From positions 310,001-374,000 of the forward strand of contig JAAHFP010000013.1 in the NCBI GenBank assembly GCA_010672925.1: a stretch of DNA of 64,000 nucleotides, read 5' to 3'. Positions 7,448 to 55,200 of the stretch are shown here, one piece after another. This DNA is from Symploca sp. SIO1C2. GTDB taxonomy: Bacteria; Cyanobacteriota; Cyanobacteriia; Cyanobacteriales; Coleofasciculaceae. The notes under the pieces are model-generated. The model did not search any database and was not told where the DNA came from. It worked only from the letters and a program-made list of their open reading frames with translations. The stretch's first letter is position 1, and every line of letters starts with the position of its first letter. The position numbers and the translations under genes are program-made.

Positions 7448-10400
7448 ATGGGAAAGGGTGATTTGAATGCAGAAAATTGGTTGAACCAAGCTAAGGAGCA
7501 ATTTGAAGCGGGAGATTTTGAAGGTGCGATCGCGTCTTGTAATCAGGCTATCGAATTGAAACCTGATAACTACTATGCCTGGTACAACCGAGGTGCATTG
7601 CTTGGTAGATTAAAACGACATGAAGAAGCTATAGCATCCTATGACAAAGCCATAGAAATCAAACCTGACTACTATGAAGCTTGGTACTACCGTAGCTTTG
7701 CACTGGCTAAGTTAGGACTATACGAAGAAGAACTCGCATCCTATAACAAAGCTATTGAATTGAAACCCGAAGAATATCAAGCATGGTACAACCGAGGTGC
7801 ATTGCTTGGTACATTAAAACGATATGAAGAAGCTATAGCATCCTACGACCAAACTATAAAAATCAAACCTGATTACTATCAAGCTTGGCACAACCGAGGT
7901 TGGGCGCTAGCAAACTTAAAGCAATATGGAGAAGCTATAGCATCCTACGACCAAACTATAGAAATCAAACCTGACGACTATAGAACTTGGCACAATCGAG
8001 GTTTAGCACTAGCAAACTTAAAGCAATATGGAGAAGCTATAGCATCATACAACCAAGCCATAGAAATTAAACCTGACTACTATGAAGCTTGGAACAACCG
8101 AGGTTGGGCGCTAGCAAACTTAAAGCAATATGGAGAAGCTATAGCATCATACAACCAAGCCATAGAAATTAAACCTGACTGTCATGAAGCTTGGCATCGA
8201 CGAGGTACGGTACTGAGTCAAACAGGTCAGTACGAGAAAGCACTTATCAACTTCAACAAAGCGCAAGAAATTGATCCTAACTGCCATAATGGATGGAATG
8301 AAAGAGGTTTAGTGCTGAGTGAGATGGGGCGATATGAGGACGCGATCGCATCCTATAACACAGCTATCAAAATTAAACCTGACTTCTACCTGGCTTGGTA
8401 CTGCCGTAGTTGTGCACTGGATGGGTTAGGACGATATGAAGAAGCACTCACATCTTACGACAAAGCCATCGAAATCAAGCATGACTCTCATGATACTTGG
8501 AACAACAAAGGCTCGGTGCTTTGTAAATTAGAGCGATTTGCTGAGGCGCTACCGCACTTTGAGAAAGCTGCACAATTAAACCCTAACAACTACTATGCTT
8601 GGAACAATCAAGGCTTGGTGCTGAATAAATTAGGGAAATTTTCTGAAGCAATCACCTTTTTTGACAAAGCCATAGAAATTAAACCTGACTATCATGAGGC
8701 TTGGTACGGAAAAGGTATAGCGCTGGCAAACTTAAAACAAAAGCAGGAAGCTATAGCAGCATACGACAAAGCCATAGAAATTAAACGTGATTTTCATGAA
8801 GCTTGGTACGAGCGAGGTGTGGTGCTGGCCAACTTAAAGCAATATGAAGATGCGATCGCTTCTTACGACAAAGTAATAGAATTAAAACCAGACTACCATG
8901 AAGTCTGGAACAGTAAGGGTTTTGCACTTGCTAGATTAGAGCGATTCTCTGAAGCGCTACCCTACTTTGAGAAAGCGACACAATTAAATCCTAACAGCTA
9001 CTCTGCTTGGAATAATCAAGGCTGGGCGCTGAATAATTTAGAGCAATTTTCTGAGGCAATCGCATTTTTTAACAAAGCCCTAGAATTAAAATATGATGAT
9101 TACTTAGCTTGGGAAAATCGAGGAGTTGCCCTTTTAAACCTAGAACAATTTTCTGAAGCACTTGCTTGCTGCGACAAAGTAATAGAATTAAAACCAGACC
9201 ACCACGAAGTTTGGAACGATAAGGGTTTTGCGCTTGCTAGATTAGAGCGATTCTCTGAAGCGCTCCCCTACTTTGAGAAAACTATAAAATTAAACCCTAA
9301 CAACTACTCTGCTTGGAATAATCAAGGCTGGGCGCTGAATAACTTAAGGCAATTTTCTGAGGCGCTCGTTTTTTTAAATAAAGCCCTAGAATTAAAATCT
9401 GACTACCACCTAGCTTGGTTTAATCAAGGTGTAGCTCTAAGTAAGTTAAAACAACATGAAGAAGCGCTCATCTCTTTCAATCAAACTATAGAAATCAAGC
9501 CTGATTTCTATGAAGCTTGGATTGTTCGGGGTAATGTACTAAGAGATTTACAGCAATTTGAAGAAGCTATTGCATCCTACGACAAAACCATACAAATTAA
9601 TCCTGAAAACGATTGGGCTTGGGTTGAAAGAGGGGAAGTGCTGTTGGAACTAGAACGATATGAAGAAGCACTAGCCTCTTGCGACAAAGCAATAGAAATT
9701 AACCCTGACAACGATTCAGCTTGGCACAACCGTAGGATAGTGCTGTTGAGACTAGAGCAATATGAAGAAGCCCTCGCCTCTCATGACAAAGCAATAGAAA
9801 TCCAACCTGACGATCACAAAGCTTGGAATATCAGAGGTGATGCACTACTTGAATTAGAACGTTTACAAGAAGCAATTACATCTTGGGAAAAAGCCATAGA
9901 ATTGAAGCCTGACGATCACCAAGCTTGGCACAGAAAAGGTAAAGTACTGAATGAAATAGGTCAGTATGAGGAAGCACTTGCTTGCTTAAACAAAGCCCAA
10001 GAGATTGATCCTAACTGTGACAGTGGTTGGGGGGAAAGGGGTTTAGTGCTAGCTAACATTGGGGAATATAAAGAGGCGATTGCATCCTATGATAAAGCCC
10101 TAGAACTAAAACCTGACTACCATAATATTTGGATTAACCGAGGGTTTGCAATAGCCAACGTAGTGAAAGTAATTCAAGCTCCTGCCTCCCCATTTATATC
10201 CACAGTAACAACCTATCCCAACCTTGCTCCAACATTAAACAATCTTAACTTAAATCTAGGCGGCTATGAAGGACAATTAGCAACCTACCAAGAAGGATTA
10301 AAACATTGCCCCCAAAACACTCATCCCGAAGGCTGGGGTAAATTACATCAAGCAATTGGCAATGCTCACTATTTACGAGGATGCAGAGATGCTAATCCTA

Positions 10401-12145
10401 ATCCCTATTGGCGCAAAGCTTTCGGATACTATAACAAGTCCTTGGAAACTCTCACTCCCGAAGATTTTCCCGAAGCCCATCTAGAAGTGCTGCAAGAATT
10501 AATTCGTACCCTGTTAGCTTTAGAAGCAATTTACCAAGCACAGGAATTTCAGCGTCGGGGTACAGATGTATTGCATAACTTACTCAAAAATACCAAAAGT
10601 CCCGCGAAGAAAAAACAGTTAGCCTTGAAATTTGTAGCCTTTCAGCAGTTAACCGTTGACTTAGCGGTACAATCCGGTGATGCGATACAAGGGATAGAAT
10701 TAGCAGAAGCTGGGAAAAATGCCTGTTTATCTTGGCTGTTAGCAAGTAGGGATAATGAAATGTTTTCTCCCACTTGGGAAGAGATGCAACAATTACTCAA
10801 TCCCACCACAGCTATAGTTTATTGGCATATCAGTCCAGCGGCACTCCACACCTTTATCCTGAAAGACGACAACCCTTTACCCATTGTCTTAGGGCAAACT
10901 AAGTTAACCGAGAAAACCCAATTTCTGCCCCAAATACAACGCTTGCGTGATTTTGAAGCCTGGGTGAAAGACTGGAATCAAGACTATAGCCAGTATCGCC
11001 AAAAGAAGGATAAGTCAGTAGAAAATAATTGGCGGGATAATTTGCCCAAAATGCTACAGCGGTTAGCTAAGATTCTCGATATCCCTGCCATCATCAAATT
11101 TATCCAAACTTCTGAATCCCAGCCAATCCAACATCTCATCCTGATTCCCCACCGGGATTTACACCGATTTCCTCTTCATGCTCTTTTCAATAGGGAGGAA
11201 AAAGGGCAAAATTTCACTATCTCTTATCTACCCAGTGCTCAATTTATATCAAGTTCGGTGAAATACTTACACTCTGGTGACAAGAAGGCAGAGGGCAGAA
11301 GGCAGAGGGCAGAAGGGAAGGAAGAAAGGAAGGAAGAAGATCCCAAGATACAAAGGAATTATAACTGTTTATCTGAACTTGATATTAGCCTCAAGCCACC
11401 AACTGATGAGCAGGATGAGCCTTCACCCCAACAGTTGCTGAGTGTCGAAGTAGCCGAGAGTGACAATTTACCACCCCTGAGTTTTGTTGCTTTTGAAGCC
11501 GAAGTTATCACCCAGTTGTTTGAAAATCCCCAACGTATCCAGGAAAAGGATGCAACAACAAAACGGGTAGAAGACGCTTTGGAAAATAAGCACCGGATCT
11601 TTCATTTTGCCGGACATGGTAACTACAACTTTGCTGAACCCCTAAATTCAGAACTAGCTTTAGCCAAAGATGACAAATTGACCCTTCGAGAAATTTACCA
11701 GAAAGATCTGGCTACTTATCAACTAGTGAGCCTTTCCGCTTGCGAAACGGCGATTACCGGCAACCAAACCATCACTACCGAATATGTTGGCTTAGTCAGT
11801 GGCTTTTTGAGCAAAGGAGTCCGCCAAGTAGTAAGTACCTTGTGGACAGTGAAATCAGCGGCAACTGCCTTAGTGATGATCGAATTCTACCACCGGTGGC
11901 AAGCAGGTAAATCTGAGGTGCAAGCTTTGGTAGAAGCAACCCAATGGTTAAAAAATCTGACAGTGGCACAACTCAAGCAATGGTATCAAAACTTCCGTAA
12001 CCAACTACCCCGTGAGGAAGGAAAAATTAGACCATTTGTCAAGAATGAGCTTTATAACCTTGCTACAATGGAACCAAACAACAAGCCCTACGAACATCCT
12101 TACTACTGGGCAGCATTCATTATTACTGGAAAACTTAATTTATAA
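7448..12145 (+). CDS. Giant TPR-CHAT protein (caspase-like peptidase)
   Basis: This cytoplasmic protein of 1565 residues carries 26 consecutive 34-residue TPRs (about residues 10-900, typical unit AWNNRGWALANLKQYGEAIA), a helical linker and a C-terminal CHAT domain. CHAT peptidases are caspase relatives. The catalytic His (FAGHGNYN, residue 1390) and Cys (LSACET, residue 1432) are both present. The TPR solenoid probably senses a partner and controls the peptidase. The open frame extends to a TTG at 7406, but ATG 7448 is preceded by GAGGGAGCAGGGG and starts the conserved part, so I use it. Some TPRs are recent block duplications (units 15-16 and 18-19; 8-9 and 25-26). The CHAT domain carries a repeat-derived insert (11246-11385). 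The stop codon lies within the first bases of another element. Target and trigger are unknown. Confidence 0.88.
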   Translation: MGKGDLNAENWLNQAKEQFEAGDFEGAIASCNQAIELKPDNYYAWYNRGALLGRLKRHEEAIASYDKAIEIKPDYYEAWYYRSFALAKLGLYEEELASYNKAIELKPEEYQAWYNRGALLGTLKRYEEAIASYDQTIKIKPDYYQAWHNRGWALANLKQYGEAIASYDQTIEIKPDDYRTWHNRGLALANLKQYGEAIASYNQAIEIKPDYYEAWNNRGWALANLKQYGEAIASYNQAIEIKPDCHEAWHRRGTVLSQTGQYEKALINFNKAQEIDPNCHNGWNERGLVLSEMGRYEDAIASYNTAIKIKPDFYLAWYCRSCALDGLGRYEEALTSYDKAIEIKHDSHDTWNNKGSVLCKLERFAEALPHFEKAAQLNPNNYYAWNNQGLVLNKLGKFSEAITFFDKAIEIKPDYHEAWYGKGIALANLKQKQEAIAAYDKAIEIKRDFHEAWYERGVVLANLKQYEDAIASYDKVIELKPDYHEVWNSKGFALARLERFSEALPYFEKATQLNPNSYSAWNNQGWALNNLEQFSEAIAFFNKALELKYDDYLAWENRGVALLNLEQFSEALACCDKVIELKPDHHEVWNDKGFALARLERFSEALPYFEKTIKLNPNNYSAWNNQGWALNNLRQFSEALVFLNKALELKSDYHLAWFNQGVALSKLKQHEEALISFNQTIEIKPDFYEAWIVRGNVLRDLQQFEEAIASYDKTIQINPENDWAWVERGEVLLELERYEEALASCDKAIEINPDNDSAWHNRRIVLLRLEQYEEALASHDKAIEIQPDDHKAWNIRGDALLELERLQEAITSWEKAIELKPDDHQAWHRKGKVLNEIGQYEEALACLNKAQEIDPNCDSGWGERGLVLANIGEYKEAIASYDKALELKPDYHNIWINRGFAIANVVKVIQAPASPFISTVTTYPNLAPTLNNLNLNLGGYEGQLATYQEGLKHCPQNTHPEGWGKLHQAIGNAHYLRGCRDANPNPYWRKAFGYYNKSLETLTPEDFPEAHLEVLQELIRTLLALEAIYQAQEFQRRGTDVLHNLLKNTKSPAKKKQLALKFVAFQQLTVDLAVQSGDAIQGIELAEAGKNACLSWLLASRDNEMFSPTWEEMQQLLNPTTAIVYWHISPAALHTFILKDDNPLPIVLGQTKLTEKTQFLPQIQRLRDFEAWVKDWNQDYSQYRQKKDKSVENNWRDNLPKMLQRLAKILDIPAIIKFIQTSESQPIQHLILIPHRDLHRFPLHALFNREEKGQNFTISYLPSAQFISSSVKYLHSGDKKAEGRRQRAEGKEERKEEDPKIQRNYNCLSELDISLKPPTDEQDEPSPQQLLSVEVAESDNLPPLSFVAFEAEVITQLFENPQRIQEKDATTKRVEDALENKHRIFHFAGHGNYNFAEPLNSELALAKDDKLTLREIYQKDLATYQLVSLSACETAITGNQTITTEYVGLVSGFLSKGVRQVVSTLWTVKSAATALVMIEFYHRWQAGKSEVQALVEATQWLKNLTVAQLKQWYQNFRNQLPREEGKIRPFVKNELYNLATMEPNNKPYEHPYYWAAFIITGKLNL
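11246..11385 (+). repeat. Inverted-repeat element read in frame inside the CHAT gene
   Basis: The left end ATATCAAGTTCGG and the right end CTGAACTTGATAT are inverted copies. The interior has GGCAGAGGGCAGAAGGCAGA heptamers. The same layout, with matching flanks (AAATACTTACACT followed by GGTGA), occurs between genes at about 33130-33217 in reverse orientation, and half copies lie at 19354 and 42722. Here it is translated as roughly residues 1267-1313 of the CHAT protein (including KKAEGRRQRAEGKEERKEE), a charged loop between two conserved blocks of the domain. Confidence 0.8.
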
Positions 12146-12246
12146 TAGTTCTCACATCCGTGAAGCACAGTCAATTATGGTGAACCTATTCCCTATTCCC
12201 AAAAACCATGATCTTTGTACCTCATCTAAACGAGAAACGCTATATT
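12141..12246 (+). repeat. Start-codon-associated inverted-repeat element, copy 1
   Basis: The element runs from TTCTCACATCCGTGAAGCAC to GTACCTCATC...GAGAAACGCTATA, with CCTATTCCCTATTCCC heptamers between the ends. Its first bases contain the TAA of the upstream TPR-CHAT gene, and its right end is one base from the next ATG (12248). Related copies lie at 21400-21518, 26499-26602 and 43698-43816 (reverse), all oriented the same way relative to the next gene. Confidence 0.8.
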
Positions 12247-12247
12247 G

Positions 12248-12988
12248 ATGAACTTACTCGATAAAATTACCCTGAAATCTTTCCTTGCTGCCCTAGTACG
12301 TCAGGCTCATTCCTTACCAGCGGATTTGCAACAGGAAATAAACGCGATCGCCAAATCTCTCTCTGTCAAACTTTTCCAACTTGATCTGCTTACTGAAGAT
12401 TATCCTCTCTTAGAAAAAGACTATATAGCAGCTCGTGGTATTTTACAAGATGATGGCGAGCGATTACGTTCCTCTGTGGTTGAAGAAAACCCTGTAGTAG
12501 AAATCAGTGATGAACAACTGCTGAATCTTGCCTCGGAAATCTTGAGTGCGGAAGATTCTGTCAGTGTTGCCAAGCAAGCTTATGCAGAATCCACTGAATT
12601 TAGGCAACTTCTTGCTCAACTGCTACCCCAAACCAGTTCCTATACTATCCCTATCCTCAACTTAATCGGAAAATACTGTATTACGACAGAAGCTGGTCAA
12701 AAGGTGTATGATTTGATTCATCCCAAATTACTGGAAGAGCAACCTGTAGAATTAGATTTTACCGGAGTAGAAGTTGCTGCACCTCCTTTTTTGAATTTTG
12801 CCATTGGACAACTGCTCAAAGATATTCAAGCGGAAACTATCAACCGTATTTTACACAGAAAGAACCTCAACTCACTGGATGAGGAAGCCCTCGAATTTAT
12901 CATTGATGACTGTCAACAGTATTACTCTGACTCTGAGTTTCGTAGTAGAGTAGATCAAGTTATCTATGAATTAGAAAGTGCACTTTAA
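12248..12988 (+). CDS. Unknown protein coupled to a PIN nuclease
   Basis: This soluble, acidic, largely helical protein of 246 residues has no motif that I recognise. ATG 12248 directly follows a repeat element. A TTG immediately before it would add one residue and is not needed. The stop overlaps the start of the PIN gene by one base (TAATG), so the two are very likely translationally coupled. The position resembles the antitoxin slot of a PIN toxin pair, but 246 residues is far longer than classical VapB antitoxins and no ribbon-helix-helix or AbrB-like segment is visible. It may be a partner, inhibitor or scaffold of the PIN protein. That role is inference from gene order only. Confidence 0.75.
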   Translation: MNLLDKITLKSFLAALVRQAHSLPADLQQEINAIAKSLSVKLFQLDLLTEDYPLLEKDYIAARGILQDDGERLRSSVVEENPVVEISDEQLLNLASEILSAEDSVSVAKQAYAESTEFRQLLAQLLPQTSSYTIPILNLIGKYCITTEAGQKVYDLIHPKLLEEQPVELDFTGVEVAAPPFLNFAIGQLLKDIQAETINRILHRKNLNSLDEEALEFIIDDCQQYYSDSEFRSRVDQVIYELESAL

Positions 12989-13587
12989 TGACACTCAATG
13001 TTCAAGCTCAAGTAGTTGATATCCGGGATGATACGCCAAAACATCAAGATCGGTTTCTAGTAGATACCAATGTCTGGTTGTACTTATATTATAACCGATT
13101 CAGCACACCTGGATATTCCTACCAAGATTATACATATACTCCTTATATTGATAAAGCTAGATCTGCCATGTCGTCTCTTTTCTACTGTGGTCTTTCCCTA
13201 GCTGAAATAGCCCACGTCGTTGAGCAAAAAGAGTGGGATGCAGATTTACCAAAATTAGAACTTAAGGATTACCGTCATAACTATCCAGCCCAAAGAGACA
13301 AAGTAGTTAGGAAAATAAAAAATATTTGGAACAGAGTCAAAATAACTGGAATATCAGCAGATATCTCAATTAATAAAGATACCACACAAGCAGCCCTAAC
13401 TAGACTCCCAACTCAATTACTTGATGGTTATGATTTATTTATTGTTGAAGCAATGAACAAGGCTGGAGTTGACAAAATCATCACTAACGACATGGATTTC
13501 GTTACTGTTCCTGATATCTTGGTTTTCACCGCTAATGAGAAGGCAACCAATGTGGCGAGAAGTCAAAGTAAGCTATTGGTAAGGTAG
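12988..13587 (+). CDS. PIN-domain ribonuclease-like protein
   Basis: PIN proteins are metal-dependent RNases, often toxins. The acidic active-site positions can be seen: Asp in FLVDTNVWLY (about residue 27), Glu in LSLAEIAHVVE, Asp/Glu in LLDGYDLFIVEAM and Asp in ITNDMDFVTV near the C terminus. Length 199 is above the ~130 of minimal VapC toxins, the extra being between the first and second motifs. The start overlaps the stop of the upstream gene by one base, so the pair forms a small operon. It probably acts in the cytoplasm on RNA. Whether this is a toxin-antitoxin pair or part of the adjacent CHAT locus cannot be settled from sequence alone. Confidence 0.82.
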   Translation: MTLNVQAQVVDIRDDTPKHQDRFLVDTNVWLYLYYNRFSTPGYSYQDYTYTPYIDKARSAMSSLFYCGLSLAEIAHVVEQKEWDADLPKLELKDYRHNYPAQRDKVVRKIKNIWNRVKITGISADISINKDTTQAALTRLPTQLLDGYDLFIVEAMNKAGVDKIITNDMDFVTVPDILVFTANEKATNVARSQSKLLVR

Positions 13588-21399: not shown

Positions 21400-21519
21400 G
21401 ATATATAATCACCTACACAGAATTATTTGCCTATTCCCTATTCCCTATTCCCCATTCCCTATTCCCCATTCCCTATTCCCAAAAACCTTTTACCTCATAA
21501 AAATGAGAAACGCTATAGT
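21400..21519 (+). repeat. Start-codon-associated inverted-repeat element, copy 2
   Basis: The right end (TACCTCATAAAAATGAGAAACGC, split at 21490-21513) matches copies 1 and 3, and the interior is CCCTATT/CCCCATT heptamers (21428-21480). The left end is degenerate (GATATATAATCACCTACAC). The next ATG, 21562, lies about 43 bp downstream, in the same orientation as in the other copies. Confidence 0.7.
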
Positions 21520-21561: not shown

Positions 21562-22638
21562 ATGTCACCTCCTAGGAAGCCTCCTGCCTACCTTCGCTAT
21601 TTTAAAGCCCGACTTAAACCTCTTGGGCGACCGTTATTTTGGGTATCAACGGTGGGAATGGCGGCAGTGTTGGTGGCTACTGGGTACTATTGGCAGCACC
21701 CAGAGGTATTACAGGATCTGATTAATGCTCAAGCTACCGATTCGGATAAAGTCACAGATACTCCAACTCTCTCTTCTGAGGAACTAGCTGCGGTTATGGC
21801 TGATATTGAAAGTTCTTCGGTATTATTGGCAGAATTTGACGAAATAAGAGCATTAAGCACAATTACTCAACCTAATCCGAAATCTGAGAAAAAGAGGTCA
21901 GGAGGTCTATTTTCTGAATTTATCACTCAGCAAGGAAAAACTGACTCCTCACAAAAGTTAACCTTCCCCACCTTCCAAAACAAGCTTCCGAATCAAGTAA
22001 ATTACAGTAATCCTTTTTCCAAATCCACCCAACAATTCACAAGTCCAGGTGTTGTTTCCAGGAGTAATGTGCTTAATAATTCCTTGGGAGTAGGCTTAGG
22101 GAAAAATGACCAAAATCCTAGTCAAAATTCTTCTTCATTGACAACAGAAACAGTCACTACACCAAATTGGAGTTTAAACTCTCCCAATGTCCTCAAAAGA
22201 GACCAAAGCGAAGCACCAGTAAACCCCCCACAACTTCCTACTACCAACTCTTCTACTGCTGCTGACAAGACGAGTACTGCTGATACTCAACAGGAGCAGG
22301 TATCACCGCCAACTTTTCCTGATACAGGACAAACTTCTGCTTCTCCTGTATCTATACCAAGTCCAACTCAATTCCCCCGTTCTCGTCCGAAACCCTCTAT
22401 TTATTCTAATCCCTACAATAGTTCTGTTCCCTCTTCATCGATTCCCACTGTACCGACAGCTTCTCCTATAACTCCAGTAACACCAGTTTTACCGAGTAAT
22501 AACTATAGACGATATTCCACTCAACCTCCTGCTTCGCCCAATCTAGTACCGGATACTAAACCTAGGTCTACCTTTGGGCAAACAGGTTTAAAGCCGAGTC
22601 AGTTAGATGAATCTGACTTTAATGCTCCTGAGAATTAA
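21562..22638 (+). CDS. Membrane-anchored Ser/Pro/Thr-rich protein
   Basis: A short basic cytoplasmic start (MSPPRKPPAYLRYFKARLK) is followed by a single membrane helix (LFWVSTVGMAAVLVATGYYW, about residues 29-48). A ~55-residue segment with some helical character (LSSEELAAVMADIESSSVLL) comes next, and then ~240 residues of low-complexity Ser, Pro, Thr, Gln and Asn. It is most likely a bitopic protein with a long extracytoplasmic disordered tail, perhaps spanning the peptidoglycan. No enzymatic motif is visible and I do not recognise the family. It follows the lpt genes but a repeat element separates them, so co-transcription is uncertain. Confidence 0.72.
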   Translation: MSPPRKPPAYLRYFKARLKPLGRPLFWVSTVGMAAVLVATGYYWQHPEVLQDLINAQATDSDKVTDTPTLSSEELAAVMADIESSSVLLAEFDEIRALSTITQPNPKSEKKRSGGLFSEFITQQGKTDSSQKLTFPTFQNKLPNQVNYSNPFSKSTQQFTSPGVVSRSNVLNNSLGVGLGKNDQNPSQNSSSLTTETVTTPNWSLNSPNVLKRDQSEAPVNPPQLPTTNSSTAADKTSTADTQQEQVSPPTFPDTGQTSASPVSIPSPTQFPRSRPKPSIYSNPYNSSVPSSSIPTVPTASPITPVTPVLPSNNYRRYSTQPPASPNLVPDTKPRSTFGQTGLKPSQLDESDFNAPEN

Positions 22639-22710: not shown

Positions 22711-22744
22711 AAACCAGTGGCGGGTTATTCTCTCAAGCCCTATT

Positions 22745-22972
22745 TAGGGCTTGCTGCATAAGTGTGTAAGCTATACCAGACAATGCTTTCAGTCATTTTT
22801 TACCTAAAAAAGTGCAAGGAAATTGTATTGATAGGCTCATTTTTCTTGCACAAATGATGAAAATTTTGCGTTCTCTACAATTATTATTTCCCTTGTCCTC
22901 CTTGTCCTCCTTGTCCTCCTTGTCCTCCTTGTCCTCCTTGTCTCCCTTGTCTGACTTATTCAGCAGACCCTA
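22745..22972. repeat. Inverted-repeat element with CTTGTCCTC repeats, copy 1
   Basis: The ends TAGGGCTTGCTGCATAAG (22745-22762) and CTTATTCAGCAGACCCTA (22955-22972) are inverted copies. The interior holds a conserved ~120-bp stretch (CAGTCATTTTTTACCT, AAGTGCAAGGAAATTG) and a run of CTTGTCCTC 9-mers. A second copy lies at 32880-33098. No transposase frame is present, so it is non-autonomous. The short open frames across it are repeat artefacts. Confidence 0.85.
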
Positions 22973-23998: not shown

Positions 23999-24352
23999 GC
24001 TGTTGTGTACTTAAATTGTGAATTATTGTTGACGCGAGTAAATCTCACACCTCTTTTCTTCTTGCCTCTCCTCTCGAAAATAAATAAAGGAGCTTGTGAC
24101 CCTTTTAATTCTTCAAATCTAAAATCTAAAATCTAAAATCTAAAATCTCTCTGGTCACTAGCTCTAAAAATGAATTCCCTTAGCACGCTTCACAGCTTGG
24201 CGTGTAGCAACAAACTCCTTTCCTCCGGTGATATTGGTCACAGTTCGTTAAGCACTACATTACAGCTAAAGCTGACAACACTTACTATCGACCCCGTTTA
24301 AATTCACGTTTTTTTCGGATTTACCTCAAGAGCTTTTCCAGAGAAATGCCTG
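23999..24352. repeat. AAAATCT heptamers in the gap between pentapeptide genes
   Basis: The tract AATCTAA repeated five times lies at 24114-24148 and is the reverse complement of the TTTTAGA unit seen at 4113 and 13854. The remainder of the gap shows no gene or clear signal. Confidence 0.75.
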
Positions 24353-24976: not shown

Positions 24977-25128
24977 AATTGTTGTTTGTTGTTTGTTGTT
25001 TGTTGTTTGTTGTTTGGGAATCAGGAGGCAGAAGAACTAAAAACCTACAACCTAAGACCTACCACCTACCACCTAAAACCTACCACCTACAACCTAAGAC
25101 CTACCACCTACCACCTACCACCTACCAC
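24955..25128. repeat. Three heptamer tracts in succession
   Basis: AATTTAG units (24955-24980) overlap the end of the pentapeptide gene. GTTTGTT units follow (24980-25016), and CCTACCA/CCTAAGA units (25045-25128) run up to the stop of the minus-strand gene at 25129. Confidence 0.85.
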
Positions 25129-26061
25129 CTAACAAGCAACGCTCTTTAGGATATTCATCGGTCCGCAGTTTTTCAGAAACTGCATTTGTTGCTTATTGCG
25201 CACAAGGAGAGCACCTGCGAATCCTAAAGAGTTTACAGGGATTGACTCAAAATCTTCTTGCGATCGCGGCACAAGCAGCATCCATTGCCGGGTAGCTAAT
25301 AGATTATACGCTCCAGATGGTCTGTTTCCACCAGCAGTTTCATTACTTTGCAAGCCCACTGCACGCAGCAGGTCATGATAACACTGGTTGGTTGCTACAG
25401 CTGCTTCTAAGGGAGTTTTTGCCCAATTGGAGTCTAATCTAGCGATCGCGTGGAGGAAAGGAAAGCTTGGTATAGTACCAATGATTCCTTGAAATCTGGC
25501 AGAAGCGATCGCGGGTTCTATGGGTATCTTCGGTCCATTGGGGTTGAATGGCAGGGGAATAAGTTGCAGATGCTTGTGTTTCTGGCTAGCTCCTGCCAGC
25601 TTACCACCGTTGTAGAATGCCAAGCCATCGACTTCTCCTAGGCATCGACCCATAGCTTCAAAATCCTGCACAGTGAGCAAGGTTTCCTGTTCTTCAAACG
25701 AACGAGTAACAATAAGCAGGTGATGGTCTACAACGTTAAATTTGTTCAGTAGACACAGGTGTGTGGGGGAAATATCCGCAACGAACAAATCTTCTTCGTA
25801 GGGAAGGAAAGGATTGAACTCTTTTCCAGAATTGGTTGCTTTTTGGTCTTGTTTCTTCTTTGCCTTGTCTTTGCGTATCAGATTGGACAAGATCCGAACT
25901 AGGAAATTAATACCATCTTGCTCGACGAATTCTGACTCTGTAGGTATTGATTGGAGGGCTCCGCATTGGAGTGCATGGGCAGTTTGCTGGGTAACCCTTG
26001 TCCATAATGTGCCAGGTTCTAGGGTTAGGGTTTCCTGTGAAGGTGGTTGTTCTTCAGGCAT
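25129..26061 (-). CDS. ATP adenylyltransferase (Ap4A phosphorylase) family protein
   Basis: This family phosphorolyses diadenosine tetraphosphate to ATP and ADP and belongs to the GalT/HIT superfamily. Length 310 fits. Visible are the substrate segment NPFLPYEEDLFVADI, HHLLIVTRSFEEQ in the middle and the catalytic block GASQKHKHLQLIPLP (about residues 165-179) with the His-x-His-x-Gln motif. The C-terminal part (YNLLATRQWMLLVPRSQEDF) is also family-typical. It is cytoplasmic and would control Ap4A levels, a stress-linked nucleotide. It stands alone on the minus strand between repeat tracts. Confidence 0.9.
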   Translation of the reverse strand: MPEEQPPSQETLTLEPGTLWTRVTQQTAHALQCGALQSIPTESEFVEQDGINFLVRILSNLIRKDKAKKKQDQKATNSGKEFNPFLPYEEDLFVADISPTHLCLLNKFNVVDHHLLIVTRSFEEQETLLTVQDFEAMGRCLGEVDGLAFYNGGKLAGASQKHKHLQLIPLPFNPNGPKIPIEPAIASARFQGIIGTIPSFPFLHAIARLDSNWAKTPLEAAVATNQCYHDLLRAVGLQSNETAGGNRPSGAYNLLATRQWMLLVPRSQEDFESIPVNSLGFAGALLVRNKQQMQFLKNCGPMNILKSVAC

Positions 26062-26092
26062 AGTTCAAATCAGGTTTAGTTAAATAAGTTGG

Positions 26093-26286
26093 GTAAACCT
26101 GATATCTTGCAGCATTCTCGATAACCTGCCAGGGGTTTAAACCCCTGGCTAATAGCTTGCATTCGTCTAAAGACGACTGGGTAAGAATTTCAGTCCACTT
26201 GAGTGGACTTGGGCTATTAGCTGTGGAATTAATTCCACGGCGGTTTTGGAGGTTGTTGAGAATTGTGCAAGATCTGAGGTAAACCC
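26093..26286. repeat. Four-hairpin element, copy 2
   Basis: The outer inverted ends are GTAAACCT...GATATCTTGCAGCATTCTC (26093-26126) and GGTTGTTGAGAATTGTGCAA...GGTAAACC (26251-26286). Inside, hairpins lie at 26129-26148 (perfect palindrome), 26163-26176, 26192-26209 and 26223-26238 (perfect palindrome), with GCTAATAGCT (26148-26157) and GCTATTAGC (26213-26221) bracketing the middle pair. The order and spacing match 926-1049, but hairpins 1, 2 and 4 have different bases on both sides of the stem. Confidence 0.85.
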
Positions 26287-26470: not shown

Positions 26471-26498
26471 GCTAATACCTATCAGCAAGTCTGATTGA

Positions 26499-26602
26499 TA
26501 TAAATTCTCGCATCCGTGAAGTACATCTCCCATTGCCTATTCCCCATTCCCCATTCCCGAAAGCAATAGCGAATGTACCTCACAAGTATGAGAAACGCTA
26601 TA
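26499..26602 (+). repeat. Start-codon-associated inverted-repeat element, copy 3
   Basis: The left end ATAAATTCTCGCATCCGTGA and the right end GTACCTCACAAGTATGAGAA plus ACGCTATA flank CCCCATT heptamers. The right end runs straight into the ATG at 26602. An apparent 23-codon upstream extension of the gene is translated repeat, not native protein. Confidence 0.82.
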
Positions 26603-27825
26603 TGACCATCTCCGAGTTAAATTCTGCTCTCAACTATTATGAAGCGACTCTTACTGTTATTGAGCAAGCTGGAGAAAGTCCCTCATCGGCAGTAATTCTC
26701 TGTGTTTTGATGGCTCGTGATGCGGTTCAGGAAGCCTTGACTACTGTTGAGATTAGCCACAGACAAGAAGAGGAACTAATGCTTCTGCTTCAGTTGGATA
26801 GTCGCCTCAAACAACAAGCAGGAACGATTACTGGAGTTGTATCTCTGGCGGATTGGCGTGCTAGTTTTTATCCTCCCCCAAATGCCTGGTGGTGGTTTTT
26901 GGAAGCGCCGACTCATCGGTTAGATAATTTGGATTGGTTATGGAATGGGTGTACAGTTGCTTCCCTAACTGGTTCCTTGAGTTTAGTTGTGGATATCTCC
27001 TCCCGTTTTATCAGTGGCGGTTTAAATATCTTCGGCTCTTTTGCTGTAATTTCCCAGTCTGTGTTGATGTTGTTAACTACTGGAGGAGTGTTAACGGAAA
27101 CTGGCAGGAGAGGTATCGAAGAGATGCTCTCAAAATTCGGTATCAAGAAGTATCTCTGGCAAGAAGTAAAACTGGGACTATCAGTGCTGCTTTTACTTTC
27201 GTTGATGGGTTTTAGGGCTTTTTTACCCCAAATCTCTGCCTGCTTTAATCATTGGGGTTTGAATAACTATCTTAGTGGTAAATGGTCAACTGCCCAGTCT
27301 GATTATAAGCTGGCACTGGCTCTTGATCCTGACAATGCAGAAGCTCACTACAATTTGGGAAGGCTCTATGAAGATTTAGATCAGTTAAATCAAGCCAAAA
27401 CTCAGTACCAGTTAGCGGCTCAAGGTGACTTAGATGCTGGTTATAATGCTCTTGCTCGTTTGTCTATTAAGAACAAAAAATATTCAGAAGCAGTGTCTTT
27501 ACTGTACAGAGGATTGGAATTAGTCTCTGAGGAGGATAAGGAAACGAAATATGCCCTACAGAAAAATCTAGGTTGGGCGCACTTGGAGCAAAAACGCTAT
27601 GATGACGCTAAAAATAGGCTCGAAGAAGCTATCAGTCTGGATAATACCGAAAGTCCCCAAGCTTCTGCCCACTGTTTGTTAGCTCAGGTTTTGGAAGAGA
27701 AAGACTCTCCCAAAAGCGCACTGACGGCATGGGAAAATTGTTTGAGGTATGCTAGTCAACTTTATCCAGAGGAGTATGACTGGATTGAGCAGGCACGTCA
27801 ACGGGTAGACAAGCAAAAACCGTAG
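26602..27825 (+). CDS. Membrane TPR protein
   Basis: This 407-residue protein has a soluble helical N-terminal ~115 residues, two or three membrane helices (ASLTGSLSLVVDISSRFISG, FGSFAVISQSVLMLLTTGG and KLGLSVLLLLSLMGFRAFL) between ~115 and 215, and a C-terminal TPR region (GRLYEDLDQLNQAKTQYQLA, NLGWAHLEQKRYDDAKNRL). The TPRs probably bind a protein partner at the membrane. The open frame starts at 26533, but its first 23 codons are repeat sequence and ATG 26602 begins MTISELNSALNYYEAT, so I use that. Similar architectures occur beside CHAT genes in cyanobacteria, and the exported TPR-CHAT pair lies just downstream. Confidence 0.78.
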   Translation: MTISELNSALNYYEATLTVIEQAGESPSSAVILCVLMARDAVQEALTTVEISHRQEEELMLLLQLDSRLKQQAGTITGVVSLADWRASFYPPPNAWWWFLEAPTHRLDNLDWLWNGCTVASLTGSLSLVVDISSRFISGGLNIFGSFAVISQSVLMLLTTGGVLTETGRRGIEEMLSKFGIKKYLWQEVKLGLSVLLLLSLMGFRAFLPQISACFNHWGLNNYLSGKWSTAQSDYKLALALDPDNAEAHYNLGRLYEDLDQLNQAKTQYQLAAQGDLDAGYNALARLSIKNKKYSEAVSLLYRGLELVSEEDKETKYALQKNLGWAHLEQKRYDDAKNRLEEAISLDNTESPQASAHCLLAQVLEEKDSPKSALTAWENCLRYASQLYPEEYDWIEQARQRVDKQKP

Positions 27826-34639: not shown

Positions 34640-34836
34640 TAAGAAGGAGGCAGAAGGCAGGAGGCAGAAGGCAGGAGGCAGGAGGCAGAAGGCAGGAGGC
34701 AGAAGGCAGAAGGCAGAAGGCAGAAGGCAGAAGGCAGGAGGCAGAAGGCAGGAGGCAGGAGGCAGAAGGCAGGAGGCAGAAGGCAGGAGGCAGGAGGCAG
34801 GAGGCAGGAGGCAGGAGGCAGGAGGCAGAAGGCAGA
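34640..34836. repeat. AGGCAGA/AGGCAGG heptamer minisatellite
   Basis: About 28 consecutive 7-bp units of AGGCAGA or AGGCAGG, almost pure purine plus C on the plus strand, sit directly before the start codon of the minus-strand aldehyde dehydrogenase gene. Open frames across it on both strands are artefacts of the repeat. Confidence 0.92.
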
Positions 34837-41186: not shown

Positions 41187-41278
41187 AGTATAAGACCTAT
41201 AATTCTTAGCATACAGAATACTCGCACCATTGTGTCCTGCTCTTTGAGAGCAAATCCGATTGAATTTCGTTAAATCAA

Positions 41279-41595
41279 GCTGGGAGAGTTGGGGGAGCTG
41301 AGGGAGTTGGGGGAGCTGGTGGAGCTGAGGGAGCTGGGGAAGCTGAGGGAGTTGGGGGAGCTGGGGAAGCTGAGGGAGCTGAGGGAGCTGAGGGAGCTGG
41401 GGAAGCTGAGGGAGTTGGGGGAGCTGGGGAAGCTGAGGGAGCTGAGGGAGCTGAGGGAGTTGGGGGAGCTGAGGGAGCTGAGGGAGCTGAGGGAGCTGGT
41501 GGAGCTGGTGGAGCTGGTGGAGCTGGTGGAGCTGGTGGAGCTGGTGGAGCTGGTGGAGCTGGTGGAGCTGGTGGAGCTGGTGGAGCTGGGGAGAC
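41279..41595. repeat. 9-bp GGAGCTGRG/GGAGCTGGT minisatellite
   Basis: About 35 copies of a 9-bp unit, in blocks: GAGCTGAGG, GAGTTGGGG, GAGCTGGGG, then a homogeneous GAGCTGGTG run (41498-41590). Because 9 is divisible by 3 and the units contain no stop, several frames on both strands stay open, giving spurious Leu/Glu, Pro/Ala/Ser or Leu/Pro/Gln proteins. I do not consider any of these real genes. Confidence 0.9.
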
Positions 41596-42948: not shown

Positions 42949-43686
42949 TTAGAGCAGGGTTACACCGCCATCCATCGGCAAAACCACCCCTGTAATATAA
43001 GGATTTGTGATCAAACCTAACACGGCTTGGGCAAACTCTTCTGGTTGTCCTAGGTGCTCCACAGGTAATGCGGTAGTTGCCCACTTTGTCAAGTCCGCTC
43101 TCTCAGACTCACCCTGAGAACTCCAGATACTGCTATCTTCTAGCAATCCAGGAGCAACCACATTAACCCGAATTGGTGAAATTTCTAATGCTAGCGATCG
43201 CCCAAACAGTGCAACTGCACTATTAGCAGCAGCAATTACGGAAATTCCCCCCATTTTTGAAGATTTGAAGATAGTTACACTAGATGTTAGGGTAATCGAG
43301 CCGTTAGGGGCTATATTTTTTAGTGATGCACGTACAGCAAAGAATGTCCCCCAGAATTTCTGCATCGCACCTTGAGCTGTTTCCGTGCTCATCTCTGCTA
43401 AGAGGGAACGGGGCATATTTCTGTCTCCCATAGAGGTTACAACCAAATGATCGAAGTTCCCGATTTCCTCAAAAAAAGCATTGACTGAATCCTCATGCAC
43501 AATGTCTACAGTTTTAGTCTCAATCTCTCCAGGAAGGGACTCCATTGCTTCATTTAATTTGTCTTGTGAGTAGTGGGAAAGTACCACCGATGCTCCAAGT
43601 TCTGCTGTTTTTTTGGCAATTGCTAGGTCAACTCCTGAGTTGATGCCAATAATAACTACTTTCTGCCCTGATAGTGACTCAAACAT
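42949..43686 (-). CDS. Atypical short-chain dehydrogenase, ApdF-like position
   Basis: A 245-residue SDR-fold protein. The nucleotide loop is VVIIGINSGVDLAIA, and further blocks are SMGDRNMP, NGSITLTSSVTIF and RVNVVAPGLLEDS. The catalytic Tyr-x-x-x-Lys is not there: the expected stretch reads SVIAAANSAVALFGRSLALE. It is thus a divergent SDR with a changed or lost redox mechanism. The first 31 codons of the open frame (from 43779) are repeat sequence; ATG 43686, preceded by AAAAAGGAAAAAT, starts MFESLSGQKVV. As last gene of the NRPS operon it occupies the place of the reductase gene apdF in anabaenopeptilide clusters (from memory), so a part in forming the Ahp residue is a reasonable guess. 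Confidence 0.78.
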   Translation of the reverse strand: MFESLSGQKVVIIGINSGVDLAIAKKTAELGASVVLSHYSQDKLNEAMESLPGEIETKTVDIVHEDSVNAFFEEIGNFDHLVVTSMGDRNMPRSLLAEMSTETAQGAMQKFWGTFFAVRASLKNIAPNGSITLTSSVTIFKSSKMGGISVIAAANSAVALFGRSLALEISPIRVNVVAPGLLEDSSIWSSQGESERADLTKWATTALPVEHLGQPEEFAQAVLGLITNPYITGVVLPMDGGVTLL

Positions 43687-43697
43687 AATTTTTCCTT

Positions 43698-43816
43698 TTT
43701 GGATGAGGTACAAAGTGCTTGGTAATTGGGAATTGGGAATTGGGAATTGGGAATGGAGAATTGGGAATAGGCTCACCAAAATTGGATGTACCTTATAAAT
43801 GCGAGAATTGCTATTT
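43698..43816 (-). repeat. Start-codon-associated inverted-repeat element, copy 4
   Basis: Read on the minus strand it begins AAAATAGCAATTCTCGCATT, runs GTACATCCAATTTTGGTGAG (compare 12164-12190), then CCCAATT heptamers, and ends GTACCTCATCC twelve bases before the SDR start. The terminal GAGAAACGCTATA part seen in copies 1-3 is missing. It separates the SDR from the methyltransferase gene. Confidence 0.75.
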
Positions 43817-49259: not shown

Positions 49260-52200
49260 TTATAATTCACCTTCCTCATAGTCATCTGGTATTTCTGCAA
49301 AGGAAGGTTGAGGATTTTGTACCATTTCCAGCACCTCAATATTTTGAGCCAAGCTAGCTACAGTCGGATACTCCAGAAAATTTTGTAAGGACAATTCCAC
49401 CGAGAAAATATCACTTAAGCGAGAAATCACTTGAGTTGCCAGGAGGGAATGACCCCCAAGTTCAAAGAAATTGTCCTTAACTCCAATGCGTTCAATACCC
49501 AAAACTTCACTCCAGATTTGAACCAGTTGAGCTTCAATGGGGTTGCGAGGTAGAGTAAAGCCAGTAGAAAGATTTCGAGTCGCGGTATCTGGTTTTGGCA
49601 GTGCTTTACGATCCACTTTGCCATTGGGGGTCAGAGGCAACGCATTGAGCAGGACAAAAGCCTGGGGCATCATATAATTGGGCAGCTTTTGTTGCACAAA
49701 CTGACGAACCTGTGGCACTAGTTTTTGAACTAATTTGCCGTAGAGGGGATTGTTGGTATAGTCAGTCCAAGGTTTAGCCGTGACAGTATCACTATCCCAA
49801 AAAGCAATTGGAGTTGAACCATTGCGGCAGAAGACCAGATCATAACAACCATCCTGACTACTTTCCCACCAACTCAGGTACACCTTGTAGCCCAAATTCT
49901 GCCCTAGTTCCCAAAGCTGTTCAGGATTAATGCCAGTAGTTGGTTGTTGTGGGAGTAATCCCCGTAGTTGGCTCACTGTCTCGACAGCTGGCGGTTCTGC
50001 CAACCATTGCCAAATCTGTAATGCTTGCTGTACCCTTTGGTTTGGCACACCCCGAATCCCTAGTAATTCTGGTTGCTCTTGTTGGAGTTGACTTTTAATT
50101 TGTGTCAACGAAAGTTGGTCTAATTGCCAATTGCACCAGGGAACAACACTAGTTGGAATCTGACTACCGATATGAAGAGTAACATCATAGCGGAATTGGG
50201 TTAATTCATTATTCTCAGCATAGCCTCGTTTAGGCTCAATCTCAATTGAAGTAATTTGAGGAAAACGGGTTTGGAGAGCAAGGAAGAACCTGGGGTCAAT
50301 CACCAATTCTTCTTCAGCAGTCACACTCTGATGAACCTGCTGCTGCCATTGCTCAACAGTTGTATCGGCAGCTAATCGAGATAACTGCACTGCTGCATGA
50401 TAGGGTTCCAGTAATGGCAAACTGCGGACATCCCCAACAAAGATTGTACCGTGATTGCTAATTGTGGCGATCGCTCCATCTAGAACTTGCAGCAAATACT
50501 CAACACTAGGGAAATATTGCACAACTGAATTCAAAACTATCGTGTCGAATTCTGCTGGAGGAATATCTGTAAAGTTATCCGCCATGCGGTGCAGCAGTCG
50601 CACTTGTGCTAAACCCTGACTTTGACAAATTTGTTCAACGTTTTGTAAAGCAGCGCTGGAATAATCCGCACCCCAATACTTCTGGCAGTTGGGAGCAATA
50701 CGAGATAGGAGTAAGCCAGTTCCACAACCAATTTCTAAGACTCGTTGCGGTGACAAAGACAGAATCCGGCTGACGGTACTGTCAACCCACTCCTGCATTT
50801 CCTCCGCAGGAATTGGCTGCCCGGTATAACTGCTATTCCAACCGCTAATATTAAAGGTAGGGTCATCAGTCGCAGTTTGAGGTTGACCATAGGCTTGTTC
50901 ATAGAGCATTTGCCAGTCGCTGAGGTATTCACTCTCCCATTGAGCCACCTGCTGGGGTAATACCTGGTTGTTGAGAGCAGGAACCAGGTAAGACACCAAA
51001 TTTTTGTCCCCTATCGTATCAACCTGGGCAACTACAACCGCCTCCTGTACTAAGGGGTGTTGGCTTACCACCGCTTCAATTTCCCCTAACTCAATCCGGA
51101 AGCCGCGAATTTTAACTTGATTGTCGATCCGTCCCAAGAATTCAATCTGGCCATCGGGAAGATAACGCGCCAAATCTCCCGTTTTATATAATTTTGAACT
51201 TTGAATTTTTAATTTTGAATTATCAAACGGATGAGGAATAAATTTCTCTTGAGTCAATTCAGGGCGATTGAGATAACCTCGTGCTAATCCAGCGCCACCA
51301 ATGTGCAACTCTCCAGGTACACCAATCGGTACTAGCTGTAACTGGGCATCTAAAATATAAACTTGGACATTGGTAATGGCACGACCAATTGTCACTTTCT
51401 CATCAATTGGCGTGCATTTTGCGATCGTTGCACAGACGCTGGCTTCAGTTGGTCCATAAGCATTGAAGAAGTTTCGCCCAACAGACCATTGTTTGACCAA
51501 TTCAGGAGAACAAGCTTCTCCCGCCACAATAATAGTTTGCAGTTGTGGTAGTTCTTCCTTAGGTAGGACTGCTAGTGCTGATGGGGGTAGAGTAATATGA
51601 GTAATGCCATCATCCCGTAACCGCTCAATTAACGGCTGACCTGGCATAAGAGCATCTTTTGTCCCTAAATAAAGTGTTGCCCCTGCTCCCAAACTCATCA
51701 AGATTTCTGAGATACAAGCATCAAAACTAAAGGAAGCAAACTGGAGCACCCGACTTTCCGGTTCCACACCAAAACTCTGAATTTGAGCCTGAGCCAAATT
51801 ACACAATCCTTGATGTTCTACCATCACTCCTTTGGGTTTACCGGTAGAACCGGAAGTGTAAATCACATTCGCTAGGTTAGAAGCTGTAACAACCCCAGTC
51901 AGATTCTCCTGGCTGTTTTTGGCAATTTCCAGATTCTCGAAGGCAGGAGGCAGGAAGCAGAACCCACCCCTAACCCCTCCAAGGAGGGGAACAGGAGGTT
52001 CTGAGGAAAGCTGACTTGTTTCTCCTATGCCATTGGGGGCGCAGGGATCTCCTGGGGAGTCCCCTAACAAAATAGGTTGAGCTTGATGTTGAGGTAGTTT
52101 ATCTAGAAGTTGCTCTTGAGTCAGCAACAGGGAAACTTGGCTGTCCTCTAACATATAGCTCAAACGATCGCTTGGATATTCAGGGTCAAGGGGAACATAA

Positions 52201-55200
52201 GCACCACCAGCCTTGAGAATGCCCAGTAATCCGATTAGCATTAATAGCGATCGCTCTACGCATAACCCTACCAGTACATCTGCTCCTACGCCCAAGGAAC
52301 GCAAGTAATGGGCTAACTGGTTAGCATGACAATTCAACTGAGAATAGGTGAGCTGTTCATTGCCAAATACCACTGCTACTGCATCTGGAGTCCGTTCTAC
52401 CTGTTCTTCAAATAACTGATGAATACATTGATTCACCCGTAAGGACGTTGCATGTGGAGACGTTGCATGCAACGTCTCTACAGTATCTAACAATTGATGA
52501 CGTTCCTGCTGGGTGAGCAAAGGTAATAATGCCACTGACTGCTGGGGATTTTCCACAATTGCGGTTAACAACGTCTGGAAATGTTGCATCATGCGACCAA
52601 TTGTCGTCCCATCAAATAAATCCCGGTTGTAAGAGCAAAAACCTCTGATACCTTCTGGGAAATCCCACAAGTAAACTTCTAGGTCAACCCGGACAGAATC
52701 TAGTCCTGAAGACATCCCTTCAGCCGTTAAACCGGGCATATCCCAAGGAGAACTGGGGGCATTTTGCAGGGCAAAGACCACCTGTGTCAACGGCTGGCGA
52801 TCCAGATTTCTTTCCGGTTGCAACTCCTCCACCAGCATCTCGAAAGGTAAATCTTGATGGTCATAAGCATTTTGGGTCACTTCCCGCACCTGAGCTAAAA
52901 AGGCTTCAAAAGTTGGTTGTTGAGATAAATCAAATCTTAAGGCTAGGGTATTGACAAAAAATCCAATTAATGGTTCTAATTCTGTACGATTACGATTGGC
53001 AATCGGTGAACCAACCACCAGATCCGTTTGTCTACTGTAGCGGGATAGTAACACCACAAAACCCGCCAACAAGGTCATAAATAAAGTGCTTCCAGAGGCT
53101 TGACTCAGATTTTTCAGCTGCTGTGTGAGCTGGGAATCGAGTTGAAACTGTTCTGTACCCCCTCGAAAAGTCTGTACGGCGGGACGAGGACGGTCTGTCG
53201 GCAGTTCTAACAGCGGTGGTGCGCCTGTCAAATGTTGCTTCCAGTAACTCAACTGACGTTCAAGTATTTGATTGGTCAGCCACTGACGCTGCCAGACGGC
53301 GAAGTCGGCATATTGTATCGGGAACTCTGGTAAAGTGGCAGCATCACCTGTAGAAAACCCTTGATAATAGGCTGAAAGCTCCTCCACCAAAATCCCCATC
53401 GACCAACCATCCGCAGCAATATGGTGAATGGCAAATAGCAATACATAGTCATCTTGAGTAACTTGCCAAAGCTTAACTCGCAACACAGAGTCATTGGCTA
53501 GATCGAAGGGTTTGCTGGCTGCTGCTTTCGTCAAGGCTTGCACCTGTTTCCAGGGCTCCGGCACATTCCGAAGATCCACCACCGGTAATGTGAGGGTGAT
53601 GTCTGAGTCTATCACCTGTATCGGCTTGTTATCCTTGACCTTAAACCGAGTCCTTAGGGGTTCATGGCGCTGTACAATTTCCCCAAAGGCTTGTTCCAAA
53701 GCTTGAATATTGAGATTCCCCGTCAAACGCACGGTGACATCAATAGTGTAAGCTCCACTATCTCCTTCCAAGTGATGCACAAACCACAAACGCTCCTGCG
53801 CCCAAGACAGGGGAATATCAGTGTTCCTGGAAACAGATACAATCTCTGGGATATTTAAGCTCAAACCCGCTTCCAATTGAGCAATGATCTCCTCACTTAA
53901 TTGGGCAATTGTGGGGGATTCAAACAGAGAACGCAAGGGTAAGGAAATGCTGAAGGCTTCCTGTACACGAGAGATAACCTGAGTCGCCAACAGAGAATGT
54001 CCCCCTAAGTCAAAGAAGTTATCATCAATGCCCACTTGCTCTACTTTTAGGACTTGCGCCCAAATTTTGGCCAGCATTTCCTCAGTGGGGGTGCGGGGAG
54101 CCACATAATTTTCTGTGCGATCGCTCTGTAAATCTGGTGCAGGTAAGGCACGGCGGTCTACTTTACCATTTGGTGTTAAAGGCAGCTCTTCTAAAATGAC
54201 AAAGTTGGAGGGGATCATGTAGTTAGGCAAAAGCTTCTTGAGAGTTGCCCTTAAAGATGGAACCAAATTGTCGTAATCCAATGATTTGGGTACAACGTAA
54301 GCTACTAGGCGTTTATCATTGGGTTGGTCTTCCCTTGCCAGAACAACTCCTTCCCGGACTTCTGGCAACTGGGATAGGATCGCTTCAATTTCTCCTAACT
54401 CAACCCGGAAGCCGCGAATTTTCACTAAATTGTCAATCCGTCCCAAAAATTCAATGTTGCCATCGGGTAAGTAACGAACTAAATCCCCTGTTTTGTATAA
54501 CAATTTTGAATTTTTAAAAGGATTGGGAATGAATTTTTCCTGAGTTAGTTCAGGGCGATTCAAGTAACCCCGTGCTAATCCTAAACCTCCAATATGCAAT
54601 TCTCCAGGTACACCGATGGGAACAGGTTGTAAGTGAGAATCTAGGATATAGATTTGTGTATTGGTGATGGGGCGACCAATGGAAATTTTCTCGCGATCGC
54701 TACATTTTGCTATAGTGGCACAGACACTGGCTTCTGTTGGCCCGTAAGCATTGAAGAAGTTTCGCTCCACCGACCATTGTTTAATCAATTCAGGAGAACA
54801 GGCTTCTCCAGCAACAATAATCGTTTGTAGTGTCGGAAGTTCCTCTTCTGGCAGAACCGCCAGTGCCGAGGGGGGCAAAGTAACATGAGTAATATCATAA
54901 TCTCGTAATTGCTCAACTAAGGGTTGACCAGGCATCAAAGAGTCCTTAGTTCCTAGATAAAGTGTTCCTCCTGCTCCCAAAGCCATAACCACTTCCCAGA
55001 TAGAAGCATCAAAACTGAGGGAGGCAAACTGGAGAATGCGACTTTCTGAAGATAGGTCAAAGGCTTGAATTTGAGCTTGACTTAAGTTGCACAATCCCCT
55101 GTGTTCCACCATTACTCCTTTAGGCTTACCTGTGGAACCAGAGGTGTAAATTACATTCGCCAGATGACAAGGTTGAACCCCACTATTCAGGTTATTTTGA

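Follow-up and report, generated by a model that had tools for sequence, protein, structure and literature searches.

The window, by which we mean the whole stretch of 64,000 nucleotides of Symploca sp. SIO1C2 DNA that we analysed (contig JAAHFP010000013.1, positions 310,001 to 374,000), contains four copies of a short repeat element. The copies and the genes that adjoin them are as follows.

7448..12145, + strand: gene upstream of copy 1, TPR and CHAT domains (Pfam); its stop codon lies within the element's left end
12141..12244, + strand: copy 1, full length; 85.3 bits with covariance model R2, of whose training set it is a member; empty site in genomes G001 and G002
12183..12199, + strand: short C-rich heptad stretch of copy 1, two mismatches to the heptad pattern
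12232..12244, + strand: right terminal inverted repeat of copy 1, outer arm GAGAAACGCTATA, exact match
12248..12988, + strand: gene downstream of copy 1, DUF4325 (Pfam)
12988-13587: PIN-domain gene after the DUF4325 gene (Pfam)
21416..21517, + strand: copy 2, heptads and right end recognisable, left end degraded; R2 35.1 bits; exact GAGAAACGCTATA at 21505
21562..22638, + strand: ORF downstream of copy 2, without a Pfam match
26497..26602, + strand: copy 3, full length, its last base being the A of the downstream ATG; R2 102.9 bits (training-set member)
26602..27825, + strand: gene downstream of copy 3, TPR protein (Pfam)
42949..43686, - strand: gene downstream of copy 4, short-chain dehydrogenase (Pfam)
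43684..43815, - strand: copy 4, heptads and left end recognisable, right end degraded; R2 39.0 bits

Copy 1 lies 3 bp from the ATG at 12248, with a TTG directly at the element's end, and copy 2 lies 44 bp from the ATG at 21562, the gene caller having preferred a start at 21658. Copy 3 overlaps the ATG at 26602 by 1 bp, and the ATG at 43686 overlaps the degraded right end of copy 4. In copy 2 (21416), which reads TTACCTCA, a left end can no longer be recognised; copy 4 (43684-43815) is without GAGAAACGCTATA. The TPR/CHAT, DUF4325 (STAS-like) and PIN genes stand in a row at 7448-13587, the first junction being conserved in two relatives, and this stretch looks like a CHAT-linked operon.

The element is about 100 bp long overall and has bipartite inverted ends, with TATAGC..TTCTC, 6 nt and GAGGTACA on the left, TGTACCTCA, 6 nt and GAGAAACGCTATA on the right, and 7-bp repeats between. 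As a consensus it reads TATAGC(AA/AT/AG)TTCTC, about 6 free bases, GTGAGGTACAT, a run of CCCNATT heptads, ATGTACCTCA, 6 free bases and GAGAAACGCTATA. The 48 strong copies measure 92-153 bp (median 104.5), which is too short for a transposase gene. Pairing involves the outer and the inner arms and often leaves out the 6 bases that separate them. Copy L012 folds far better than its shuffles on both strands (z -6.3 and -7.0) and copy L032 also exceeds its shuffles (z -5.3); the fold of window copy 3 is only moderately above them (z -2.5, 7 of 200 shuffles being as good). The family thus has the features by which MITEs are recognised: it is short, it has terminal inverted repeats with pairing ends, and it occurs in many dispersed copies. 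The interior varies between hosts. Records from Moorena and Okeania have heptads with G-rich units on the same strand, and in Oscillatoria records a CCCGGTTTCTTAAAGAAACCGGG hairpin often serves as filling. In variants L001, L011, L019 and L074 a GATCCCCCTAAATCCCCC...GGGGGAC filling replaces the heptads.

That a repeat family occupies the four window sites is borne out by exact matches, model scores and copy number. The 13-mer GAGAAACGCTATA occurs exactly at three sites in the window (12232, 21505 and 26590); the whole genome (8.67 Mb, 245 contigs) has 39 occurrences of it and none of the reversed control pattern. For full-length detection we used R2, a structure-aware covariance model of 17 genome copies, in place of the automatic-fold model R1; its training set includes window copies 1 and 3, whose scores are partly by construction, with copies 2 and 4 outside the set. 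Of 4824 first-look candidates 150 were scored, which yielded at least 48 strong copies (60 bits or more) in the genome, the best full-length matches reaching 116 bits. Our main counts use these 48, a set without window copies 2 and 4; 1 of the 48 lies inside a gene, and for 44 both neighbouring genes are present. The context tables hold 77 of the 80 matches of at least 37 bits among the 150 scored, with the 35.1-bit window copy added by hand and with C42:581 (full length) and the partial matches C167:19567 and C135:104911 left out. There are 95 family matches (E up to 1e-6) in the sister genome G001. Elsewhere we examined 56 copies in G001, against the 95 matches listed, and 16 in G003, where 56 were listed; the named records L276, L285 and L286 are almost surely the G001 genome, L285 and L286 being letter-identical to G001 copies around the element. 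The right-end pattern is present in at least 113 stretches of GTDB genomes, and the 80 loci listed all carry cyanobacterial names, belonging to genera that we take to be cyanobacteria, partly from general knowledge. At the Rfam gathering score the window gave 0 matches and hence no known RNA family, phage and plasmid records held nothing matching one 106-bp G001 copy, and the 13-mer GAGAAACGCTATA was not found in the literature that we searched.

The initial annotation had taken the family to be mobile, and we agree: its ends are shared with IS630 elements, G001 holds 95 matches, and an empty site exists in two relatives. The empty site is that of copy 1: in G001 and G002, both of the same genus, the two flanking genes stand a few bases apart without the element between them. 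Copy 1 sits in a narrow gap of an apparent operon, where the TPR/CHAT gene now ends at a stop codon provided by the element's left end. For copies 2 and 3 the relatives yielded no clean empty site; the intergenic region of copy 2 is too diverged, and neither relative has a match to the right-hand gene of copy 3. TA stands at both junctions in nearly all of 104 copies, but the ends themselves read TATA, and the diverged empty sites gave no clean reading of a TA duplication. A TA target would have a precedent in ISY100 of the IS630 family, for which the available part of the report describes insertion at TA with duplication of the TA (PMC2170065).

The source of this mobility is suggested by full-length IS630/Tc1-mariner elements with matching bipartite ends in other cyanobacteria (L241, L423, L324, L340 and L351). 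In L241 (Microcoleus vaginatus HSN003; 422-1575) the matching ends are 1154 bp apart, stops separate two long reading frames, and the TGA stop of the transposase falls within the right inverted repeat. L423 (Oscillatoria nigro-viridis PCC 7112 plasmid; 519-1667) spans 1149 bp and is annotated as "IS630 family transposase". As in L241, its transposase ends inside the right inverted repeat. Reading continues in another frame, and the CDS length of 956 nt does not divide by three, so that the L423 transposase may be made by programmed frameshift. Genome G006 contributes L324, L340 and L351, each with both ends and about 1030 bp long, L351 with stops inside. The transposase-side end is also present at loci of G004, G008 and G009. 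When translated, L236 and L241 run into a transposase 3' end reading ...NWFTHCCYCTSSF, and L213, L226 and L238 have, as judged by eye, the same transposase-end DNA. The transposase of the elements that share these ends matches Pfam DDE_3 (E 2.2e-26); its NCBIfam IS630 match (E 2.7e-24, for a 162-aa C-terminal part, the only part scanned) scores 86 bits, below the model's cut-off of 100. Judged by the sequence of its ends, which match those of transposase-encoding IS630 elements, the family is an IS630-type MITE.

We did not find a matching autonomous element in the window's own genome, G000 (5 protein matches; assembly 97.9% complete). Its two long IS630 proteins (L327 and L343, the other three matches being short pieces) have other ends, so that the donor would be lost or absent from the assembly, or another transposase would serve. 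We also considered L074, in which two ends lie near each other, as an autonomous copy and rejected it; the 229-aa ORF between them is, judged by eye, no transposase and looks hydrolase-like.

We compared the placement of copies with a null of random position and orientation within the same intergenic regions (5000 draws). Gene calls came from our own script, which, on an annotated plasmid stretch, recovered 48 of the 56 annotated stops (not counting the final gene, which is cut) and gave the same start in 41 of 48, with 5 of 53 calls unannotated; counts of starts shift by one between early and later training runs of the caller. The right end lies within 30 bp of a stop codon in 17 of 44 copies of the window's genome (6.6 expected; unreached in 5000 random draws), in 19 of 52 in G001 (7.9 expected) and in 36 of 96 pooled (14.6 expected). 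For these two genomes together, stops lie within 30 bp in 37 of 46 cases on the right and 12 of 54 on the left (Fisher 7e-9), and in G001 alone in 20 of 25 and 7 of 34. With copies read C-rich on the + strand, the right side is the one closer to a gene boundary in 70 of the 96. A sister family in G003, with a C-rich interior and other end spacers, has no clear polarity in 16 copies (8 right versus 5 left). We rejected stop codons supplied by the element as the cause for most copies, as it does not contain 31 of the 37 stops that fall within 30 bp on the right. One-sided deletion beside the right end would be unlikely, because the junction TA is retained.

The side that lies close to genes appears to follow the interior. 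Among elements sorted by interior class (133 distinct right ends, of which 110 had a left end and 23 were dropped; gene model trained on mixed genomes), those with a G-rich interior on the + strand are closer on the left in 28 of 40 (P 0.017), a set that supersedes a smaller first run of 11 left versus 2 right. Copies whose interior lacks runs of G or C are unbiased (22 left versus 18 right), and the C-rich copies of this set divide 2 right and 2 left (n=4). Interior class is tied to genus, and the reversal of the close side is therefore confounded with phylogeny.

Free 7-bp arrays of nearly every unit obey the same rule, and more strictly than the elements do. In the window's genome and G001, the gene boundary lies 5' of the G-richer strand in 216 arrays and on the other side in 32, or 140 versus 12 when only neighbours of at least 200 aa are counted. 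Stops within 30 bp account for 102 of 144 on the 5' side and 9 of 142 on the 3' side, and starts for 45 of 104 and 2 of 106, respectively. By source, arrays for and against the rule number 196 and 25 in the window's own genome, 33 and 7 in G001, 54 and 14 in named records, 30 and 10 in Moorena and Okeania, 16 and 5 in other relatives, and 2 and 1 in G003. Exceptions are the unit AATTTTG, for which the rule is reversed (2 versus 9), and two Nostoc plasmid stretches that go against it (0 versus 5). Arrays of period 14 follow the heptad rule (42 versus 10); period 8 (8 versus 5) and period 9 (25 versus 14) are not significant in small samples. Arrays without GGG runs obey it too (106 versus 20 in a four-unit scan), so that runs of three G, and with them three-quartet G-quadruplexes, are unnecessary. 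It is possible, and we offer this only tentatively, that a cyanobacterial process specific for 7-bp repeats and largely independent of their unit brings them to gene boundaries, or retains them there, with a fixed strand polarity (gene 5' of the G-richer strand), also sorting heptad-carrying MITEs by orientation.

Taking these data together, we favor as probable a model in which an IS630/Tc1-mariner transposase moves the element, a non-autonomous MITE filled with C-rich 7-bp repeats, and in which the heptads set a position filter. In this model the transposase would act in trans and insert the element at TA by cut and paste. The filter, for which the heptads and not the ends would be responsible, would act through a bias in landing or in survival, such that the close side follows the G-rich heptad strand (gene 5'), as it does in free heptad arrays. 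The four window copies before start codons would then represent the start-side share of a general bias, plus chance. Several results sit less comfortably with this model: (i) the reversal between interior classes is confounded with phylogeny, the few C-rich copies there being evenly divided; (ii) the C-rich copies of G003 are without clear polarity; (iii) a T-rich right flank, with T as first base in 63 of 96 copies, could make the polarity partly a target preference of the ends; (iv) a matching autonomous element was not found in the window's genome; (v) G001 has a mild excess of starts (11 of 52 versus 6.6 expected); and (vi) the fold of window copy 3 is moderate (z -2.5).

One alternative for the polarity is selection on survivors, whereby heptads would be purged if C-rich in the sense direction just after a stop or G-rich in the sense direction just before a start. 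Left ends within 45 bp of a start are indeed depleted (6 of 96 versus 13.8 expected), and effects of G-quadruplexes vary with strand and place in the part of the literature available (PMC4692102). Purging alone, however, leaves the concentration of right ends within 30 bp of stops (36 versus 14.6) unexplained, and left-side stops are near expectation rather than depleted (12 versus 14.6). We regard this explanation as somewhat unlikely on its own.

We consider it less likely still that the polarity is fixed at insertion by asymmetric ends, with a transpososome that prefers a T-rich right side and with such stretches adjoining gene ends. The flanks do lend themselves to this idea, T making up 47% of positions +1 to +10 on the right versus 33% on the left and the first base being T in 63 of 96. 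Yet copies with a G-rich interior are close on the other side and have flanks of palindromic appearance (A as the last base on the left in 23 of 44, T as the first base on the right in 28 of 44), free heptad arrays follow the same rule without possessing these ends, and TATTT antisense after stops is only slightly commoner (28 versus 22 in 353 genes).

The initial annotation had further proposed that the element always precedes a start codon and could amount to a mobile expression module. Each of the four window copies does face a start, but the generalisation fails across the genome, where the right-hand neighbours of the 44 strong copies with both neighbours known start on the element's side in 23 cases and end there in 21. 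In 6 of these 44 copies the right end is 45 bp or less from a start, versus 7.3 expected from random placement and orientation (P 0.79), which for this genome is the outcome that the initial annotation had itself named as refuting its proposal. G001 alone has a mild excess (11 of 52 versus 6.6 expected, P 0.03), and the two genomes together have 17 of 96 versus 13.9 expected (P 0.20). The association with start codons seen in the window is, for this genome, no property of the element. We consider very improbable a mobile expression module, meaning an element that has a promoter, leader or translation signal and is retained with its right end towards a start codon. The four window copies, the G001 excess and the carriage of promoters by other MITEs, as described in the available part of a review (PMC10969869), speak for this idea; against it are the absence of start enrichment in this genome, the fact that stop codons are the favoured neighbour, and the number of predicted promoter-like sites, which does not go beyond the shuffled range. 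The three window copies scanned (copy 2 left out) have 1, 0 and 0 such sites, versus shuffle means of 0.6, 0.4 and 0.6, and the sole site is on the opposite strand and points the other way. No terminator-like site was found either.

Chance resemblance among unrelated AT-rich spacer pieces, for which one could cite the degraded state of copies 2 and 4 and the fact that GTACCTCA by itself is not significant (4 in the window versus 1.26 expected, 6 of 100 shuffles reaching 4), is a negligible prospect and was rejected given 39 exact 13-mers versus 0 for the control, full-length matches of up to 116 bits and an empty site. Three of the four GTACCTCA sites lie inside copies 1, 3 and 4, and the fourth, at 58204, is within an ORF of 4798 aa that occupies 49260-63656 on the - strand.

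The element is an ordinary one in kind, an IS630-group MITE, and unusual in its filling. It resembles IS630/Tc1-mariner elements such as ISY100 of Synechocystis, as far as these are covered in the part of the report at hand (PMC2170065), in its bipartite inverted ends of about 27-30 bp and its TA-rich junctions, and further in that elements sharing the ends of the window family encode a DDE_3 transposase. The window copies differ in lacking a transposase, and the likeness of the ends is to family members other than ISY100. Nezha is reportedly another MITE of cyanobacteria. The MITEs of Anabaena sp. 90 are also small, with inverted ends, many copies and a mostly intergenic location (132 of 147, 77-541 bp), and in the accessible portion of their description they are classed as type II, with no matching IS in that genome (PMC3542288). 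The heptad filling and strand polarity belong to the window family; that portion of the report does not describe them for the Anabaena elements (PMC3542288).

The heptads have precedents as well. Rehm and colleagues described G-rich heptads of the same polarity in Xanthomonas and Nostoc PCC 7120, the closer boundary lying 5' of the G-rich strand for starts and stops, in the part of their report available (PMC4692102); here the polarity is found also inside MITEs and in arrays without GGG. The TAACTGA heptads of Beggiatoaceae and some cyanobacteria are likewise 7-bp arrays with a preferred orientation near gene boundaries, but those of Beggiatoaceae are, in the available text, mostly upstream of starts (PMC4679880), whereas the arrays here are more often at stops. 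What had been a vague idea of a mobile promoter is now a defined transposon family, with its type of transposase identified, in many cyanobacteria. As the same ends occur with different fillings, the effect of the ends on where DNA settles can be separated from that of the 7-bp repeats, and the origin and placement of cyanobacterial 7-bp repeats thereby become testable.

The window also holds tandem repeats apart from the four copies. Two very long arrays lie at 34645-34835 (AGGAGGC, 27 units) and 41278-41591 (AGCTGGGGG, 35 units). Other short repeats, at 22734-22851, 24078-24159, 25043-25135 and 26089-26286, recur several to many times in at least one of the two same-genus genomes, and 25043-25131 is a heptad array.
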